Below are positions 4,482-60,412 of a DNA stretch of 64,000 bases, piece after piece (position 1 is the first letter of the stretch; the number at the start of each line of letters is the position of its first letter). The stretch comes from a virus. The notes beneath the pieces were generated by a model, which was given only the letters and a program-made list of their open reading frames with translations, was not told the origin of the DNA and ran no database searches. Position numbers and translations under genes: made by a program. The stretch lies in IMG/VR virus record IMGVR_UViG_3300031772_000001, positions 1 to 64,000 of that record; one strand, 5' to 3'.

Positions 4482-5600
4482 TCACCTCAATCCTGTTGTT
4501 CCTGTAGGATATGCTAATTCATTTCTCATCTGCAATAAAGGCCATTTAGCAGAACTTGCGGGGACAGGTGTACCCACAGTAATAAAAGTGGAAGGAGAAT
4601 CTTGTGAGTTGTATGATGTACTTATCCAACTAGCGGATCTGACTACTGAGGATACCCTGTGCTCATCAATTCTTCCCGGCCAACCTGTATCAAAACCATC
4701 TACAGATTGTTTCCACGCATAACGATTCTGTGTAATGTCCCTTGACCAAGAAGTATCCTGGGCGACATACGCCCCATTTCCGTATGATTTTATGGTAGTT
4801 GACGCATTATCATACGATACAGTTATATGTCCCCAATTGGACGATGATGTATAAAACACCCCCGTATTAAATGAAGTAATATTGCTGTCGCCATTGACCT
4901 TGAACTGATCATCATCCCCGTTACCCCAGAGAACAAAATCACAGCTATATCCGGCAGTGCCACCACCCACAAGTCCACGTTGAGTATCATAATATGTAAT
5001 GCTTTGCCATACTTCAACGGTTATTGTAGAAGGATTTGCAAAGGAATTACTCGCAAACCCAGAATTGTAAAAATATGTTGTAGTATTCTGACATTTACCT
5101 ATTTTGCCATCTTCTTCAGTTGACCCCGTTCCAAACTCAGTTCCTGTATGTCCATTGCCTGTTGCATCGGTTAATGTCGTTGTACCGTCCCCATGCCATA
5201 CCAGCATGAAACTATTTGACCATACGGCATTCCTTCCATATGTGTCAGTGACAGCAGGCATTGATGCTGAGGAATTATTGTACCAAACGTAGATGACAGT
5301 ATCTACAGTTGAAGATACTGAAGTTACCTTAACCCAAATTTCAGCTAAACCATTGGCGGGATTATTGTCTCGTGTGAACGAGACTACTTCCACGGGGAGT
5401 TGAGTAGCGCCAGCGGAATCTGAGGAAAACCTAATATCCCCGCCGTCTGAATTGGCAGGGTAGCTGCCATCAGCATCGAACATCTCGGAGGGAAGATTAC
5501 CTACAGTAAATAAAACAGGGAAGTTAGATTGATCTGCACTTACTTTAGTGTGATCAATTGTTAATGAACATCTGCGGTTCCATCCTGAAGGGAAAGCCAT
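4482..5600 (-). CDS. DUF2341 + LamG-like virion protein
   Basis: 372 residues. The N-terminal ~115 residues match the DUF2341 pattern (WNRRCSLTIDHTKV, then DIRFSSD, LPVEVVSF, AEIWVKV and VIYVWYNN). Residues ~130-340 resemble a concanavalin-A/LamG-type sandwich (LVWHGDGTTTLTDATGNGHTGT, ITVEVWQSI, GRIDEHRVSS). Such pairs occur in phage fibres and surface glycan-binding proteins. Only 4 bases separate it from the fibre gene downstream and 7 from the gene upstream, so it is part of the fibre operon. Glycan binding is an inference from the fold. Confidence 0.75.
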   Translation of the reverse strand: MAFPSGWNRRCSLTIDHTKVSADQSNFPVLFTVGNLPSEMFDADGSYPANSDGGDIRFSSDSAGATQLPVEVVSFTRDNNPANGLAEIWVKVTSVSSTVDTVIYVWYNNSSASMPAVTDTYGRNAVWSNSFMLVWHGDGTTTLTDATGNGHTGTEFGTGSTEEDGKIGKCQNTTTYFYNSGFASNSFANPSTITVEVWQSITYYDTQRGLVGGGTAGYSCDFVLWGNGDDDQFKVNGDSNITSFNTGVFYTSSSNWGHITVSYDNASTTIKSYGNGAYVAQDTSWSRDITQNRYAWKQSVDGFDTGWPGRIDEHRVSSVVRSASWISTSYNSQDSPSTFITVGTPVPASSAKWPLLQMRNELAYPTGTTGLR

Positions 5601-5607
5601 GTCTTAC

Positions 5608-6177
5608 TCATGCGGTAAATAAAGTTGTAGCCAGCCAATCAATATTTGAATTTACAAGATTCTGCACTACAGAATCCGCTACAGCGCCTCCGGTAGATTG
5701 AATGGTAGAGTCCTGACTTATCAAAGCCATAAAGTAGCCAATATAATCATCAAGGCTATTAGCTAGGTCTGAAGCAAGTTTTGATCTTTGACTATGATAT
5801 GTGGTATCTGCTGACTCATTGCGAATATCGTATGAAGCCTTCAGCATAGCCCCTTTTGTCCGATCACGCAATGGTCCTGAATTGTAAAGTTTGGAAATGT
5901 TAGATAGTGTTGAGGTTATTACTAGTGAATGATCTGCTTCAGGGGTTTCCACCGTCCGCATGTAATATGCGGCTTCATCTCCAAGTCCCTCATGATAAAC
6001 ATAAAAACCAACACTATTCCAGAGTCCTGTTGGCCTAGATTCATCAGAATCTTTCCCAACCTCAAAGAAACTAACCCGATACCAAGTGACTCCATCCGTT
6101 TCCACTTGCTGCACTTCAGGAGTGCGGACTACAAGATATTTTCCAGATAGTTGAGCCAGCAGTGCAGCCTTATTCAT
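5608..6177 (-). CDS. Hypothetical protein of the tail-fibre operon
   Basis: 189 residues starting MNKAALLAQLSGKYLVV. No domain recognised. The first half is beta-rich (VTWYRVSFFEVGKD, VGFYVYHEGLGDEAAYYM); the second is helical and polar. It sits between the TIM-barrel hydrolase-like gene and the DUF2341 gene with short gaps, so a virion or fibre-assembly role is likely by context only. Confidence 0.6.
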   Translation of the reverse strand: MNKAALLAQLSGKYLVVRTPEVQQVETDGVTWYRVSFFEVGKDSDESRPTGLWNSVGFYVYHEGLGDEAAYYMRTVETPEADHSLVITSTLSNISKLYNSGPLRDRTKGAMLKASYDIRNESADTTYHSQRSKLASDLANSLDDYIGYFMALISQDSTIQSTGGAVADSVVQNLVNSNIDWLATTLFTA

Positions 6178-6192
6178 ACATTTTCCCTCTCA

Positions 6193-7641
6193 TTAAATTT
6201 TTGAGATAAGTTCAGCAGTCACCCAATCGCACGTAAACACATCAGAATCTGTAGTCAAATCCACTTGTAACGTGAGAGCTTGATCTTTATTTGTAGCCAG
6301 TGATCCTCCCGACCCATAGGCGCGGTCAGCATCGTGCCATAGATACCCATCTATATTTGTACCAGCAAGATAAATATGGCCACAAAGAACTATTGGTGTA
6401 TTACCCGTTGCTGCAAGTGCTACTACAGATGTACCGTTCCAGCACAACCTAAAAGTTCCGTTCGCACTACCTGTTGTCCTTCTAACACCGGCCTGTAACC
6501 TCAGTATCCTATTATCTACTAAGGTATAAGCTGGAACAGTTATTGTTTTCAGTATTTGAAATCCAGCACCAGTTGCAGTTGAAGCTGTAGTAGAAACCGC
6601 TATCGCCTGTACAACCTCTTTGTAGTTTATTTTCCAAGTTTGCGCGCTTGCCGTAAAATCAAGAACAAATTCAAAACGATCCGTAACTCTGTGGTACAGG
6701 TTAGTATTGGTCACATCATTTATTACTGACGGTGATAAGGACCAACACGCCTCTGTGTTCAACTTCAATCTTTTCCACCTATTGACTGAAGCACCAGATC
6801 CATAATTTTCGTCGGAGGTTCCCCAAGCATCCAATGACCACATCAAGGAAGATAGATACCCAAAGTTAGATAGCTCTTGTCCTACAACACTAGCATTGGC
6901 TATAACTCCACCGCCTGCTACATTTATCGGATATGAACGCCTAAGACTAACAGCCTTCGCCCCGCGAGCATACCAGTCAGTCTTAGTCTCGTATCCCCCA
7001 GAACCAGAATAAGCTGCTGTGTTTATTGCAAAACTTTCCAAAAGAATCCAATCAATTGATCTCAAATGTGAGGAAACTAATGTTGGATTATAAGTAGAGT
7101 TTGGATAGCTTACATCGTTTGCTATGCCTAACAAGTGATCGGTGTTCCAAGCGTTAGCAAATGCCAACTTTGAGTATGTCCGACTATGCACATAGTCCAA
7201 CATAGTATTAAACTGCGCCCTGGTTACAGTATAGTCATATCCTGACTCATCCATGAACACACCATCAACTTGTAGTGTATTCCACTGATCTACTTTTGTC
7301 TGAAAATTTACCAAAGTTTGGTTCGCAATGACATAACCAAAAATCAAGCATTTTGGATTAAGAACTTTGATTCTGGGTATTATTATCTGGGTATTGACAT
7401 AATCAGGATGTGTAGGGGATTGTATAGTGTCACCAAAAACAATAAGATCATACTTAGCAAAATCCTGTGCCACAGCTTCATTATACCAAGCATTTTGAGC
7501 ACTATTAAAACTATTTAGATAGCCATAGTAAATCAAAAGATTCTTAGGTGAAACCTCTTGTTTTTCCAGAGTATTTACCAAGTTAGATATAGTTTGTATA
7601 TCTTGACTCATCTGTCTATTTAGATACTTTTCACTTGGCAT
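6193..7641 (-). CDS. TIM-barrel glycoside-hydrolase-like tail protein
   Basis: 482 residues. Residues ~35-290 look like the alpha/beta barrel of the spherulin-4 / GH114-type families: LLIYYGYLNSF, YDLIVFGDTI, CLIFGYVI, VDGVFMDESGYDY and LAFANAW occur in order. The acidic DES in the GVFMDESG strand is a plausible catalytic site. Residues ~300-482 are a beta-rich carbohydrate-binding-like tail. In a fibre operon this suggests a depolymerase acting on host surface polysaccharide (inference). The N-terminal ~35 residues (MSQDIQTISNLVNTLEKQ) may form a short coiled coil. Confidence 0.65.
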   Translation of the reverse strand: MPSEKYLNRQMSQDIQTISNLVNTLEKQEVSPKNLLIYYGYLNSFNSAQNAWYNEAVAQDFAKYDLIVFGDTIQSPTHPDYVNTQIIIPRIKVLNPKCLIFGYVIANQTLVNFQTKVDQWNTLQVDGVFMDESGYDYTVTRAQFNTMLDYVHSRTYSKLAFANAWNTDHLLGIANDVSYPNSTYNPTLVSSHLRSIDWILLESFAINTAAYSGSGGYETKTDWYARGAKAVSLRRSYPINVAGGGVIANASVVGQELSNFGYLSSLMWSLDAWGTSDENYGSGASVNRWKRLKLNTEACWSLSPSVINDVTNTNLYHRVTDRFEFVLDFTASAQTWKINYKEVVQAIAVSTTASTATGAGFQILKTITVPAYTLVDNRILRLQAGVRRTTGSANGTFRLCWNGTSVVALAATGNTPIVLCGHIYLAGTNIDGYLWHDADRAYGSGGSLATNKDQALTLQVDLTTDSDVFTCDWVTAELISKI

Positions 7642-7650
7642 AGAATTCCT

Positions 7651-7854
7651 CTACTTAACTGTTCTTCTCTTCGATTTAAGATCAGAAATATCCCACACTC
7701 TCATACAAATAACCTTTCCCCCATGATCACCTGCATACCAACAATCTCGAAGCTCTAAATCACAGTTCCCGTACTCTACATTATGCTTTTTCTTATGATA
7801 ACATTCTGTCTTATCTGTGCATTTCTTATAATAAGAACAACGAAACTTTGTCAT
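7651..7854 (-). CDS. Small Cys-rich hypothetical protein
   Basis: 67 residues with eight cysteines and several histidines (CSYYKKCTDKTECYHKKKH, CDLELRDCWYAG), consistent with metal binding. It starts directly downstream of the glycosyltransferase gene and ends in TAG. Function unknown. Confidence 0.55.
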   Translation of the reverse strand: MTKFRCSYYKKCTDKTECYHKKKHNVEYGNCDLELRDCWYAGDHGGKVICMRVWDISDLKSKRRTVK

Positions 7855-7857
7855 TCA

Positions 7858-8637
7858 CTATGGATACTGCCTTCCAGTTTGCCTATCAATATGTCTACAA
7901 AAGATAGAAGTATCACAAAGAAACGGATGCTCCCGTTTTGCAACTTTCTTCCACCCTGTTTTTTCAAGAACCTTGTTCTCAAGTAACTGATCAAAGAAGT
8001 AAAGATCCTGAGTCCCGGCTTTTCTAGAAAAAGACATACTCTCGGGGTCTAAGAATACCTGCTGAGGTGTCTCAAACACCTTATGAAGCACGGTTCCATC
8101 ACACGCCTTATACTCAGCCGTATGCTCCCACATCCACTTCAAAATCGAAGTATGAATGAGCAAACAACCCATTGGAAGACCATCACACCAAACTTTATCC
8201 CCTATCTTCCAATCCGTATATGACCCATTACCCCGACCCCTAAAAGTCAAAGGAAGTGTAGGTGAAGCCTTCAAGTAATACAAACCAGAGACTACCGGGA
8301 TAGTCTCTTTCTTAGTATATTCAAAAAACCTTAAAAAAAGATCGGGCGGTATTAGTACATCATCTTCAATAGTTATCAGCCAATCAACCCCTAATTCCAA
8401 GGCTTTCTTAGTGATGCAATTGTAGGCATCAGCAATGTTATACCCTATAGCCGTATATGCCAAATCAAACCCAGACGCTTCCCAATTCATCGGAATGATC
8501 TGGGCAAATCTGTTGTGACACCACTCGTAACGCACCCATCCTTCAGTGGGAGTAGCTATAAGAGTCCTTTTCTTCCACTTCTTCTTGCAATATGACAGAA
8601 TCTCTCTTGTCCCGGTTGTCTTTTTTGTCTCTTTCAT
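7858..8637 (-). CDS. Glycosyltransferase-like protein (GT-A fold)
   Basis: 259 residues. RTLIATPTEGWVRYEW opens the nucleotide-sugar domain; residues 90-95 (IEDDVL) give the acidic metal-binding DxD-like motif; SGLYYLKASP and GLPMGCLLIHTSIL follow as in small phage GT-A enzymes. It probably transfers a sugar to a virion, DNA or host-surface acceptor; the acceptor is unknown. The first ~20 residues overlap the zinc-ribbon gene upstream by about 95 bases, so the true start may be later, but no better start with a ribosome binding site is visible. Confidence 0.7.
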   Translation of the reverse strand: MKETKKTTGTREILSYCKKKWKKRTLIATPTEGWVRYEWCHNRFAQIIPMNWEASGFDLAYTAIGYNIADAYNCITKKALELGVDWLITIEDDVLIPPDLFLRFFEYTKKETIPVVSGLYYLKASPTLPLTFRGRGNGSYTDWKIGDKVWCDGLPMGCLLIHTSILKWMWEHTAEYKACDGTVLHKVFETPQQVFLDPESMSFSRKAGTQDLYFFDQLLENKVLEKTGWKKVAKREHPFLCDTSIFCRHIDRQTGRQYP

Positions 8638-33528: not shown

Positions 33529-33535
33529 AAGTAAA

Positions 33536-33623
33536 TACGGGGGATGGGACTCGAACCCACAGGCTCCCTTTCGGGAAAAGCGAATTTTAAGTTCGCCGTC
33601 TATGCCAATTCGACTACCCCCGC
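33536..33623 (-). tRNA. tRNA-Leu(UAA)
   Basis: 88 bases on the minus strand. Acceptor GCGGGGG pairs with CCCCCGT; anticodon arm GCGAA-CTTAAAA-TTCGC reads UAA; a long variable arm (CCCGAAAGGG) marks a class II tRNA; the T-arm has GGGTTCGAGTCCC. CCA is not encoded (A then TTTAC follow). Confidence 0.93.
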
Positions 33624-33628
33624 AAAAA

Positions 33629-33708
33629 TACGGGTGAAGGGACTCGAACCCCCACGCTTTCGCATCAGATTTTGAATCTGAGATGTCTACCAATTCCATC
33701 ACACCCGC
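33629..33708 (-). tRNA. tRNA-Leu(CAA)
   Basis: 80 bases on the minus strand. Acceptor GCGGGTG pairs with CACCCGT; anticodon arm TCAGA-TTCAAAA-TCTGA reads CAA; short class II variable arm (TGCGAAAGCG); T-arm GGGGTTCGAGTCCC. CCA not encoded. Together with tRNA-Leu(UAA) it covers the UUA and UUG codons. Confidence 0.93.
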
Positions 33709-33713
33709 AAGTA

Positions 33714-56872: not shown

Positions 56873-57055
56873 TTATCTCCCTGTTCCTATTACAACGTGA
56901 TACAATCCCCACAGAACTGTCAACACAAAAGCCAAAAAATACGAGTCATCCTTACAAACCATAGACTGAATGCCTGTGATGATCCATGACAGGATCACCA
57001 CAGACAAACCAGGATGATTTAACATCGCCCTAACAACATCAAACACCTCACTCAT
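56873..57055 (-). CDS. Two-helix membrane protein (60 aa)
   Basis: MSEVFDVVRAMLNHPGLSVV...; hydrophobic segments LSVVILSWIITGIQSMV and YFLAFVLTVLWGLYHVVIG. Phage membrane protein, possibly holin-related; unassigned. Confidence 0.55.
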   Translation of the reverse strand: MSEVFDVVRAMLNHPGLSVVILSWIITGIQSMVCKDDSYFLAFVLTVLWGLYHVVIGTGR

Positions 57056-57227
57056 CCTTTTTCTTTTCAAAAACAGGAATACCCTGACAACTCATCTCGT
57101 GCTGCACTCCCTCATGCACCACATGCACCGGCCTACGCTCACCATCAGGAAATTTCAAAAAAGAAACATCCTCCTCCGGGGTGCAATCCCGTTTGCAAAA
57201 ACCACAAATTACTTCTTGCTTGGACAT
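57048..57227 (-). CDS. Small Cys-containing protein (59 aa)
   Basis: MSKQEVICGFCKRDCTPEED...; CGFCKRDC plus a later Cys. Overlaps the next start by 8 bases. Unassigned. Confidence 0.55.
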   Translation of the reverse strand: MSKQEVICGFCKRDCTPEEDVSFLKFPDGERRPVHVVHEGVQHEMSCQGIPVFEKKKDE

Positions 57228-57230
57228 CAA

Positions 57231-57878
57231 AACCCCCTGTTAAATCACCATTACCATACCTGAAATCACCATACAACACCAATACTGGACTCCACATCAC
57301 ATAATTCTACTGCACATCACCACACCTTTACGTCACATGACATCACCCGACCGCACGTTACTATACCATCACCTAACTGGACAAAACCGCACGCCACTCC
57401 ACCGCACCGTCACATGACCACACCGAACGCCACTACACCATACCATAACTATACGATACCGCATAACAACTGCACCCCACCAACACTGAAATCCACTGCA
57501 ATCTACTGTACCAATACCTAACGTCACGCAAAGACACCTTATCTTCACCCAACCTGACAGTAGATAACTCCACGGAACGACACCAAACCAATACTGAACA
57601 TCACTCCAACAGACCGGACCCCACCCAACACAACTCAACCGTTACCGTACTCGACGTAACCCCACAAAACTCTACCATCACCAAATTGTACACAATCTCA
57701 CCGAACTCCACCGTCACATCATTGTACAGTAGATAACTCAACCATCACAATATCGTAACGAAACTCGATGTCACTTAACCCAACTTCACCATAACAGCAC
57801 GGAACGATACTGCACCCCACCGCACCAAACCATACCCTAACAGCACGGTATCACACCCCACGACACCCGACCATTACA
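57231..57878 (-). repeat. Degenerate pentanucleotide (GTNNN) array, non-coding
   Basis: About 650 bases in which, on the minus strand, GT recurs every five bases with free intervening bases (for example GTAAC GTGCG GTCGG GTGAT; GTTAG GGTAT GGTTT GGTGC), with occasional one-base slips. The plus strand is correspondingly C/A-rich with AC every five. No start/stop structure or ribosome binding site supports coding. It lies between two minus-strand genes, so it is probably transcribed. Confidence 0.8.
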
Positions 57879-58583
57879 TTAAACTACTTTTGTCAAGGTG
57901 TAGTCATACCTTCCGTACATGCCTGAGTTACGCCACTGACCAATACCCATATACCGGGAAGAGTAATCCAGCAACGTCCTCAGCAACTCCTCGGTCAGTG
58001 TGAACCTTGGTGTCTCCAAGCACTGAATCTGACAATCAAAATGAGCACCCTCCTCAATCATCTCACTCCGCAACAGAAACACACGCGGCCCATCCTTACC
58101 TATCACACGTACTCCACGCTCCAGAAACCCAATCGGCTTATCTGTAATGAGGGGAATCCTTCTGGGATTGACATTAACTGTCCGTGTCACGTTGGCAAGA
58201 AAAGCAGTTACTTTCTCACCAACCTCAACAACATCATCACCATCACTATCATCACCCTTTTTCTTCTTCTTAGTCACCATCTTACCCGTTGCCAAACCAT
58301 TCAACGTAGACGCGGAATCCTTCAGGGCACCCTTCACAACATACGTATAGAGAAGAGGGTTCCCGTCTGCATCCCGATGAAAGCACGTAGTGCCCTTCTT
58401 CACCTCATCCGGCAACGAATCAATTTCTTCTTGAACCTGCTGCGGAGTAAGGTGTGGGTTCTCTTCCAAAATCTTCTTTATCAGATAGTCAAGGGCAATG
58501 GAATCATTGCCAGGCTGACTACCAAGAACCTGAGAATTGAACACCACACTCAAATCGTACACAGACTCTTTCAACAAAGACAT
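57879..58583 (-). CDS. Conserved phage protein (GIGQWR...GYGRxxY type)
   Basis: 234 residues. TTCFHRDADGNPLLYTYVVK, GALKDSASTLNG, VNPRRIPLITDKPIGFLERG, AHFDCQIQCLETPRFTLTEE and YMGIGQWRNSGMYGRYDYTL match a protein family common in phages of various hosts; function not established. Contains a KKKKKGDDSDGDD linker. Confidence 0.75.
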   Translation of the reverse strand: MSLLKESVYDLSVVFNSQVLGSQPGNDSIALDYLIKKILEENPHLTPQQVQEEIDSLPDEVKKGTTCFHRDADGNPLLYTYVVKGALKDSASTLNGLATGKMVTKKKKKGDDSDGDDVVEVGEKVTAFLANVTRTVNVNPRRIPLITDKPIGFLERGVRVIGKDGPRVFLLRSEMIEEGAHFDCQIQCLETPRFTLTEELLRTLLDYSSRYMGIGQWRNSGMYGRYDYTLTKVV

Positions 58584-58690: not shown

Positions 58691-59278
58691 TTAGGCAACC
58701 AGAGACTCCTCAGACTCATCAACCGCCGGACCACGCACCACCACATAATCTGAAAAAATGTCCTCTATGATCTCAGCCGTAGTCCTCTTGTCATACCAGA
58801 CGTTCAATTCAGTAATACGGTTGTTGCACTCCTTGGCATCATCAATGTATTTCTTAGCCTTACTTAACGCACCACACCCCAAGGCATCAAAAACTTTCCT
58901 CAAAATCGTCGCAGCAGTGTCTTCACCATCAACAAGAACTGTGTTTTCTTTTGAATCTAAAATAAATTCATGGAAAACTCGCTTTGAAAAGACAGGCACC
59001 TCCGACTTTGGCAGCTTCCGAAGATAGTAAAATTCCCGCATCAAGCGTGGAAGATCGGCCTCCCGAACAGACTCCGGGGATAAGCTATACTCTGGCATCA
59101 CCGAATCATCACGCACGAGCTTCTGTATCATCACAAGATATACCTTGTCACCAACGGCAATCTGTGACCAAAAAGGCTTCTGATTCAGTGCCTCAAGCAC
59201 CAAATCGTCCTCAGCAATCAGCATGTACTTCTTATCATAAGACAAGAACCTCTTCTTGAACAACTCAAGATCCTGCAT
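58691..59278 (-). CDS. Hypothetical protein (195 aa)
   Basis: MQDLELFKKRFLSYDKKYML...; alpha/beta character, with LPRLMREFYYLRKLPKSEVP and TAEIIEDIFSDYVVV. Follows the methyltransferase gene with a 14-base overlap. Not recognised. Confidence 0.55.
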   Translation of the reverse strand: MQDLELFKKRFLSYDKKYMLIAEDDLVLEALNQKPFWSQIAVGDKVYLVMIQKLVRDDSVMPEYSLSPESVREADLPRLMREFYYLRKLPKSEVPVFSKRVFHEFILDSKENTVLVDGEDTAATILRKVFDALGCGALSKAKKYIDDAKECNNRITELNVWYDKRTTAEIIEDIFSDYVVVRGPAVDESEESLVA

Positions 59279-60014
59279 TGATTACCCCACTTCTTAGAAC
59301 ACGAATACGTTCTTCTGCTACCTGACAATACTTCTCTTCCTTCTCAATCCCAATAAAATTTCTTTTGGTATTTATACAAGCAATCGCAGTTGTTCCTGAT
59401 CCTATGCAATTATCAAGAACAACATCATTTTCATTTGTGTAAGTACGAATAAGATACTCAAACAATGCTACAGGTTTTTGGGTTGGGTGAAGCCCCGCCT
59501 CCCTCGCATGATATGCTGTTGAAAATTCTACAACAGAACGAGGATACCCGACATCAGTACCTACAGAACGAAAAACCCCTTCCGTAAATTTACCACACGT
59601 CTCAGTCATCACTGTTTTTTGTGCTGCTCTATGACTTGGCTTTACAAAAAATTGTGGGTTATATGGAGGAACACCATAACAAAAAATAAGAATATCCTCA
59701 TGCTGTCGAAGAGGACGCTTTTTTGCATTTAAGAACCCGACAGTATTAGACTTTCTCCAACACATATCATACTTAAAGTTTGAGACATTGCTCATCACTA
59801 AAGCAGAAGTAAATGGCTGTGACGCAGTTAGTACAATGACACCATTACAGATTCTCTCATACTCCTTCCATAACGGCTCAAATGGAATAACTGTGTCCCA
59901 TTTACACTGTGTAGTTCCATAAGGCAAATCACATAACACCATATCAATACTCTTATCAGGTATTAATGGCATTACCTCAAGACAATCACCATGAATTATT
60001 GTATTTATTTGCAA
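59265..60014 (-). CDS. DNA N4/N6-amino methyltransferase
   Basis: About 249 residues. The catalytic motif is DLPYG (residues 29-33 from the TTG start), followed later by HPTQKPVALFEYLIR and VVLDNCIGSGTTAIACINTK, the SAM-binding motif, so the order is catalytic then SAM-binding (beta class). It methylates an exocyclic amino group of A or C in DNA, probably protecting phage DNA. The start is taken at TTG 60014 after GGGAGAT. No partner nuclease was seen. Confidence 0.88.
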   Translation of the reverse strand: MQINTIIHGDCLEVMPLIPDKSIDMVLCDLPYGTTQCKWDTVIPFEPLWKEYERICNGVIVLTASQPFTSALVMSNVSNFKYDMCWRKSNTVGFLNAKKRPLRQHEDILIFCYGVPPYNPQFFVKPSHRAAQKTVMTETCGKFTEGVFRSVGTDVGYPRSVVEFSTAYHAREAGLHPTQKPVALFEYLIRTYTNENDVVLDNCIGSGTTAIACINTKRNFIGIEKEEKYCQVAEERIRVLRSGVINAGS

Positions 60015-60028
60015 CGCACCATCTCCCG

Positions 60029-60412
60029 TTAGATACTCTCCCCGGCCACGGTGAAGTTGTATTGCCAGCCCTTCTCTGTCCACACACCAGCAATCAAAAT
60101 ATTCTTAACAGTCGCAGCAACAGAAGAGACATTCAACGAAATCTCATAAACTTCCGGGTCCATACTCACAGTTGTTTCTCTGTCAACTATCACAGAGTAA
60201 AGATACGGTCTACGGTTGTCTGGGTCAATCCAATTAAAGCTGAAAGCAAAACTCTCACGCCCATCCTTGTGTGTCCGTCGTATTACCTTCACCTTATCAA
60301 AGTAATACTTGAAACTCTTATCCATCTCCTCCCATGTCAACAAAGTCATATAGCTCATGTGATGGACAATATCATCACCATCGGAAATATCACATAGAAC
60401 ATCAGTATCCAT
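60029..60412 (-). CDS. Hypothetical protein (127 aa)
   Basis: MDTDVLCDISDGDDIVHHMS from the ATG after AGAGGATAAT. Beta-rich (RESFAFSFNWIDPDNRRPYL, YEISLNVSSVAATVKNILIA). Not recognised. Confidence 0.55.
   Translation of the reverse strand: MDTDVLCDISDGDDIVHHMSYMTLLTWEEMDKSFKYYFDKVKVIRRTHKDGRESFAFSFNWIDPDNRRPYLYSVIVDRETTVSMDPEVYEISLNVSSVAATVKNILIAGVWTEKGWQYNFTVAGESI

Follow-up and report, generated by a model that had tools for sequence, protein, structure and literature searches.

A periodic G-pyrimidine array beside a predicted RAMP gene in a large phage: a probable guide-RNA array of a VIPR-type system

Results

Gene content of the locus

The window, a stretch of 64,000 nucleotides (positions 1 to 64,000) from IMG/VR virus record IMGVR_UViG_3300031772_000001, harbors a periodic non-coding block among genes of the same strand.

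57244..57878, minus strand: GY-NNN array with ~124 units of 5 bases (GT in 107), interspersed with ~19-20 six-base steps that carry an extra G; putative vrRNA-like guide-RNA array
57879..58583, minus strand: vipr-like gene encoding a 234-aa predicted Cas7/Csm3-type RAMP, directly upstream of the array and in the same orientation
57048..57227, minus strand: downstream gene for a small cysteine-containing protein, 59 aa from the ATG at 57227, no family assigned; its ribosome-binding site terminates the array
58691..59278, minus strand: upstream gene for a 195-aa protein, no family assigned
59265..60083, minus strand: DNA methyltransferase (N6_N4_Mtase), second gene upstream of the RAMP, context only

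The array occupies the whole intergenic gap, from the stop codon of the RAMP gene to the ribosome-binding site that precedes the small downstream gene. No CRISPR repeat array was identified at the locus, and no cas genes neighbor the RAMP gene. Elsewhere in the window, we observed 63-base tandem repeats (21-residue units) at 1-1090, probably within a coding region, and an adjacent tRNA-Leu pair with anticodons TAA and CAA at 33535-33709.

Rhythm and composition of the window array

The minus strand of 57231-57878 contains 121 GT dinucleotides within 648 nt, with a base composition of G 247, T 228, A 110, and C 63. GT pairs at a lag of 5 numbered 74, whereas 2000 shuffles that preserved dinucleotide counts gave 22.4 +/- 4.1 (z = 12.6), and pairs at a lag of 10 were similarly enriched in the same test (z = 10.6). 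Units without GT were mostly AT or TT, and the base preceding GT was unconstrained, being G in 35 of the 124 units. The window array is the sole period-5 block of this kind in the virus record of 167,660 bases. Open reading frames inside the array reach at most 89 aa and no common frame was seen, so that a coding repeat was rejected. An earlier note on this DNA had described a non-coding block with GT every 5 bases on the minus strand and the other 3 positions nearly free; all of this stands, the free positions of the units being close to random.

The window array was absent from the tandem-repeat listing by TRF, promoters and terminators within it did not exceed the shuffle level, and an Rfam scan near it returned no match. 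Its predicted RNA fold had a z of -1.8.

Arrays in other contigs

We searched IMG/VR with a pattern of 8 GT units and one six-base step, and 1 genome per prokaryote species with a pattern of 9 GT units, identifying 76 and 21 stretches, respectively; the loci are almost all metagenomic, and those found by the GT patterns are GT-form by construction. Extended arrays at a period of ~5.17 were present in 59 of the 76 IMG/VR stretches, whereas a matched TG control pattern in IMG/VR gave 12 stretches, only 1 of which passed the same score cut-off, and marginally so (12.6). The one close relative of the RAMP gene in IMG/VR (L002; best segment at 55% identity) lies on the 156,609-base contig of a sister phage, and the 834-base array behind it retains the rhythm with different free bases. 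The pattern recurs with unrelated free bases in this sister phage, ~60 other viral contigs, and a few MAG contigs.

Array sizes range from ~100 bases to at least 2.2 kb, with up to ~420 units in the arrays used for the spacing statistics, and several records have many arrays each. The longest is on a sheep-colon Clostridia MAG contig (L093), where 5262-7980 forms an array of ~2.7 kb and >500 units, with more array sequence on L097 adjoining the gene. Rfam annotation of 14 array loci identified tRNAs only and 0 hammerheads, and no recurring 3' tail was found among 47 merged arrays.

Linkage of the arrays to a single gene family

An all-against-all comparison of the open reading frames flanking the arrays at 66 loci, which take in partial contigs, identified one protein family (~212 aa) beside the array in 43 loci, or ~39 after near-identical contigs were dropped. 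In all adjacent cases the family gene was on the strand of the array. The second most frequent neighbor family occurred at 4 of the 66 loci only, and no recurring accessory (vap-like) gene was identified among them; for this reason, the 195-aa protein upstream of the window RAMP was not assigned as vap. With a family profile, the gene was detected in 26 of 27 array-bearing viral records.

We also searched in the reverse direction, using protein patterns alone, and obtained 44 loci, 41 with a near-full-length gene. Arrays accompanied 35 of these 41 genes (16 GT and 19 GC), and after removal of 9 already-known contigs, GTNNN or GCNNN arrays were present at 26 of 32 loci; among 245 random phage DNA stretches, none had an array. 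The strand count of the GC arrays (19 "minus-strand") has no meaning, because the self-complementary GC yields the same number as there are GC loci (19).

In 9 whole contigs, arrays lay no more than a few kb from the gene, with the exception of one at ~10 kb and one cluster at 11-14 kb; the latter (L054, record G004) spans 78639-80645 on a contig whose RAMP gene is at 92377-92985. Several GT arrays but no detected RAMP gene were found in L083 (record G025, 114,823 bases), where the arrays are either orphans or the gene is missing from a partial contig. Two RAMP-like open reading frames occur at one locus (L079, 8375-9394), and the contig of L248 and L249 has 2 RAMP gene copies.

The predicted RAMP protein

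The window protein is predicted to be a small phage-encoded RAMP with an RRM core and a G-loop. Its AlphaFold2 model had a mean pLDDT of 81.8, with low confidence around residues 100-122, and the C-terminal glycine-rich loop reads GIGQWRNSGMYG. The best Foldseek match of the model was type VII Cas7 (E 2.5e-8), and comparison with Csm3 gave a structural Z of 13.8. No Vipr chain was present among the fold-search matches listed (library to April 2026), which carries no weight either way. Searches of Pfam, PHROGs, and NCBIfam returned weak RAMP hints and nothing stronger.

Sequence-profile matches included type VII Cas7 (E 3.3e-8), Csm4 (0.006), and SUSP1 Vipr (0.27), and an hhalign comparison with SUSP1 Vipr (36pp) gave a probability of 76% confined to 52 C-terminal columns. 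By these profile scores, the branch to which the window protein belongs is nearer CRISPR Cas7 than SUSP1 Vipr. The case for common descent with SUSP1 Vipr draws on fold, motif, and array logic, the sequence similarity being weak.

Unit core and spacing rule

Across 139 arrays, the unit core was GT in 81% of 8623 units, and GC was the commonest core among the exceptions (833 of 1654). Some relatives of the RAMP gene have GC instead of GT arrays (L221, L222, L224, L227-L231, L251, and others), and the form tracks genome G+C, which is 0.36-0.68 for GC arrays vs 0.35-0.54 for GT arrays. The GC-core arrays follow the same step rule as the GT arrays, including the 31-nt steps. Since GC is both the commonest replacement of GT and the core in GC-rich relatives, the common rule can be written as G-pyrimidine-NNN.

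Spacing statistics were obtained from 90 arrays with 6170 placed units. Six-base steps were mostly 21-46 nt apart with a mode of 31 (5x5+6), the sixth base was G in 90% of 861 such steps, and the free bases beside them were A-rich. The occasional one-base slips described earlier thus exist, although they are not random. Position-wise mismatch in array duplicates was uninformative, its signal being swamped by chance lattice alignments.

The arrays have a mean period of 5.15-5.17 nt. Across the same 90 arrays, the number of six-base steps had a variance of ~0.28 of the binomial expectation, and this ratio was constant from 12 to 96 units, which indicates that the mean period is the average of 5- and 6-nt steps and rules out a half-helical phase lock (period 5.16). 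A spatially fixed lattice would push the ratio toward zero; as it does not fall, the period arises from counting and not from DNA helix geometry.

Discussion

A guide-RNA array as the best explanation

VIPR, described in a preprint (April-June 2026; PMC13142463), comprises a phage RAMP ("Vipr"), with a thumb domain contacting the RNA, and guide RNAs (vrRNA) made of 9-16 GGY/NN pentanucleotides followed by an invariable structured 3' tail. These guides bind double-stranded DNA non-contiguously, with the NN bases pairing and one base skipped, and the system represses genes of competing phages; the non-contiguous DNA pairing was shown experimentally for SUSP1 VIPR, whose Vipr binds RNA of pentanucleotide repeats and uses their variable bases as the guide (PMC13142463). 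VIPR is known from this one preprint and is proposed to be older than, and related to, the CRISPR effectors; some types are stated to use "a related consensus", and there is mention of "staggered arrays" in which vrRNAs overlap (PMC13142463). The remark in the earlier note that no described phage element of this form was recognised is therefore outdated, VIPR guides being pentanucleotide repeats (PMC13142463). Reading the SUSP1 locus directly, we found that the Vipr gene at 28474-29061 matches PDB 36pp across all 195 residues and is flanked by GGYNN tracts of ~13-15 units.

With a probability of roughly 0.8, we consider the block in the window to encode the guide RNAs of a VIPR-type system in a large phage. 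Cas7-group RAMPs polymerise along guide RNA. By this mechanism, the minus strand would be transcribed into GU-rich RNA, and RAMP subunits would line this RNA, each holding one G-U (or G-C) step per 5 bases. The earlier proposal of a multimeric protein contacting one dinucleotide per subunit fits the adjoining predicted Cas7-type RAMP well. By analogy with SUSP1 VIPR, the free bases between the grips may pair non-contiguously with double-stranded DNA, and this pairing would silence genes of rival phages or of mobile elements. The extra Gs, ~31 nt apart, may delimit modules and perhaps show where overlapping guides start in one long array, and these modules may be the staggered guides mentioned in PMC13142463.

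Alternative explanations

In an alternative that we regard as unlikely, the RAMP polymerises on GU-periodic RNA whose free bases are uninformative, and the filament serves as a sponge or ruler or has a structural role. Such a scaffold would agree with free positions close to random and with arrays of up to ~420 units, which far exceed known guides. It would also agree with the outcome of the target searches, where 10 decoding rules, applied to phage DNA totalling ~3 Mb, produced no more matches than shuffled decoys did, and an exact pattern of 9 units had no match in IMG/VR; this outcome says little, because the search covered ~3 Mb and relied on candidate rules for decoding the 3 free bases and the extra G. 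However, a scaffold has no evident reason to avoid simple repeats, and in the nearest relatives that have been characterised, the variable bases serve as the guide (PMC13142463).

We assign a very low probability to a DNA-level element, such as an origin, packaging, or partition site bound as double-stranded DNA by the neighboring protein. The mean period of 5.16 is near half a helical turn, but the phase is unlocked, the variance increasing over distance in the way that counting 5- and 6-nt steps produces. Further, the predicted RAMP fold of the neighboring protein is RNA-binding, the array is always on the strand of the gene, and several records have many arrays. The packaging, origin, and decoy ideas raised in the earlier note find no support. 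A TRAP-like attenuator or an RNA decoy for a host regulator, in which a host or phage ring protein would bind RNA once per 5 bases, is scarcely credible, because the likeness to TRAP sites, which have ~5-nt spacing, extends to the spacing only, while a (G/U)AG triplet does not recur in the arrays, the protein linked to them is a predicted RAMP, and GC substitutes for GT in GC-rich relatives.

A possible VIPR branch in large phages

Beyond the VIPR-type guide-RNA reading, we tentatively propose, at somewhat less than even odds, that the arrays represent a distinct VIPR branch in large phages, with a looser code in which the RAMP reads nothing but a G-pyrimidine every 5 bases and 3 bases per unit stay free, an extra G per ~31 nt splits kilobase-scale arrays into modules, many overlapping guides derive from one transcript, and the pyrimidine follows genome composition. 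The novelty of this variant depends on the supplement of PMC13142463, and part of it may already be known.

Our analysis constitutes an independent detection of VIPR-like arrays from sequence alone, and a simple rule, GY-NNN with an extra G about every 31 nt, finds arrays without the protein. The collected set comprises 2 composition-linked forms (GT and GC) and a protein branch that scores nearer Cas7 than SUSP1 Vipr, and it makes it possible to test where guides begin and end, how they are decoded, and how the branch is linked to Cas7.

Comparison with known systems

TRAP and its leader RNA share with the model proposed for the window array a single short contact for each subunit at intervals of ~5 nt, but differ in protein fold and in the repeated bases. 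Class 1 CRISPR Cas7/Csm3 proteins, especially type VII Cas7, resemble the window protein in the predicted RAMP fold, the glycine-rich loop, and the proposed regular subunit spacing on guide RNA, whereas the window locus has neither CRISPR repeats nor adjoining cas genes and a period of 5, not 6. In contrast to VIPR type II (SUSP1), the window code is GY/NNN and not GGY/NN, ~124 units run continuously instead of the 9-16 per vrRNA, quasi-regular six-base steps with an extra G are present, the arrays described here have no visible structured 3' tail and no recurring vap, and the window protein is only weakly similar in sequence to SUSP1 Vipr. As the strict GGY/NN motif is absent, we filed the locus as VIPR-type but not as type II. 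Like VIPR, the window combines a small predicted phage RAMP with an adjoining non-coding pentanucleotide array of G-pyrimidine core and variable bases, at a locus with neither a CRISPR array nor cas genes.
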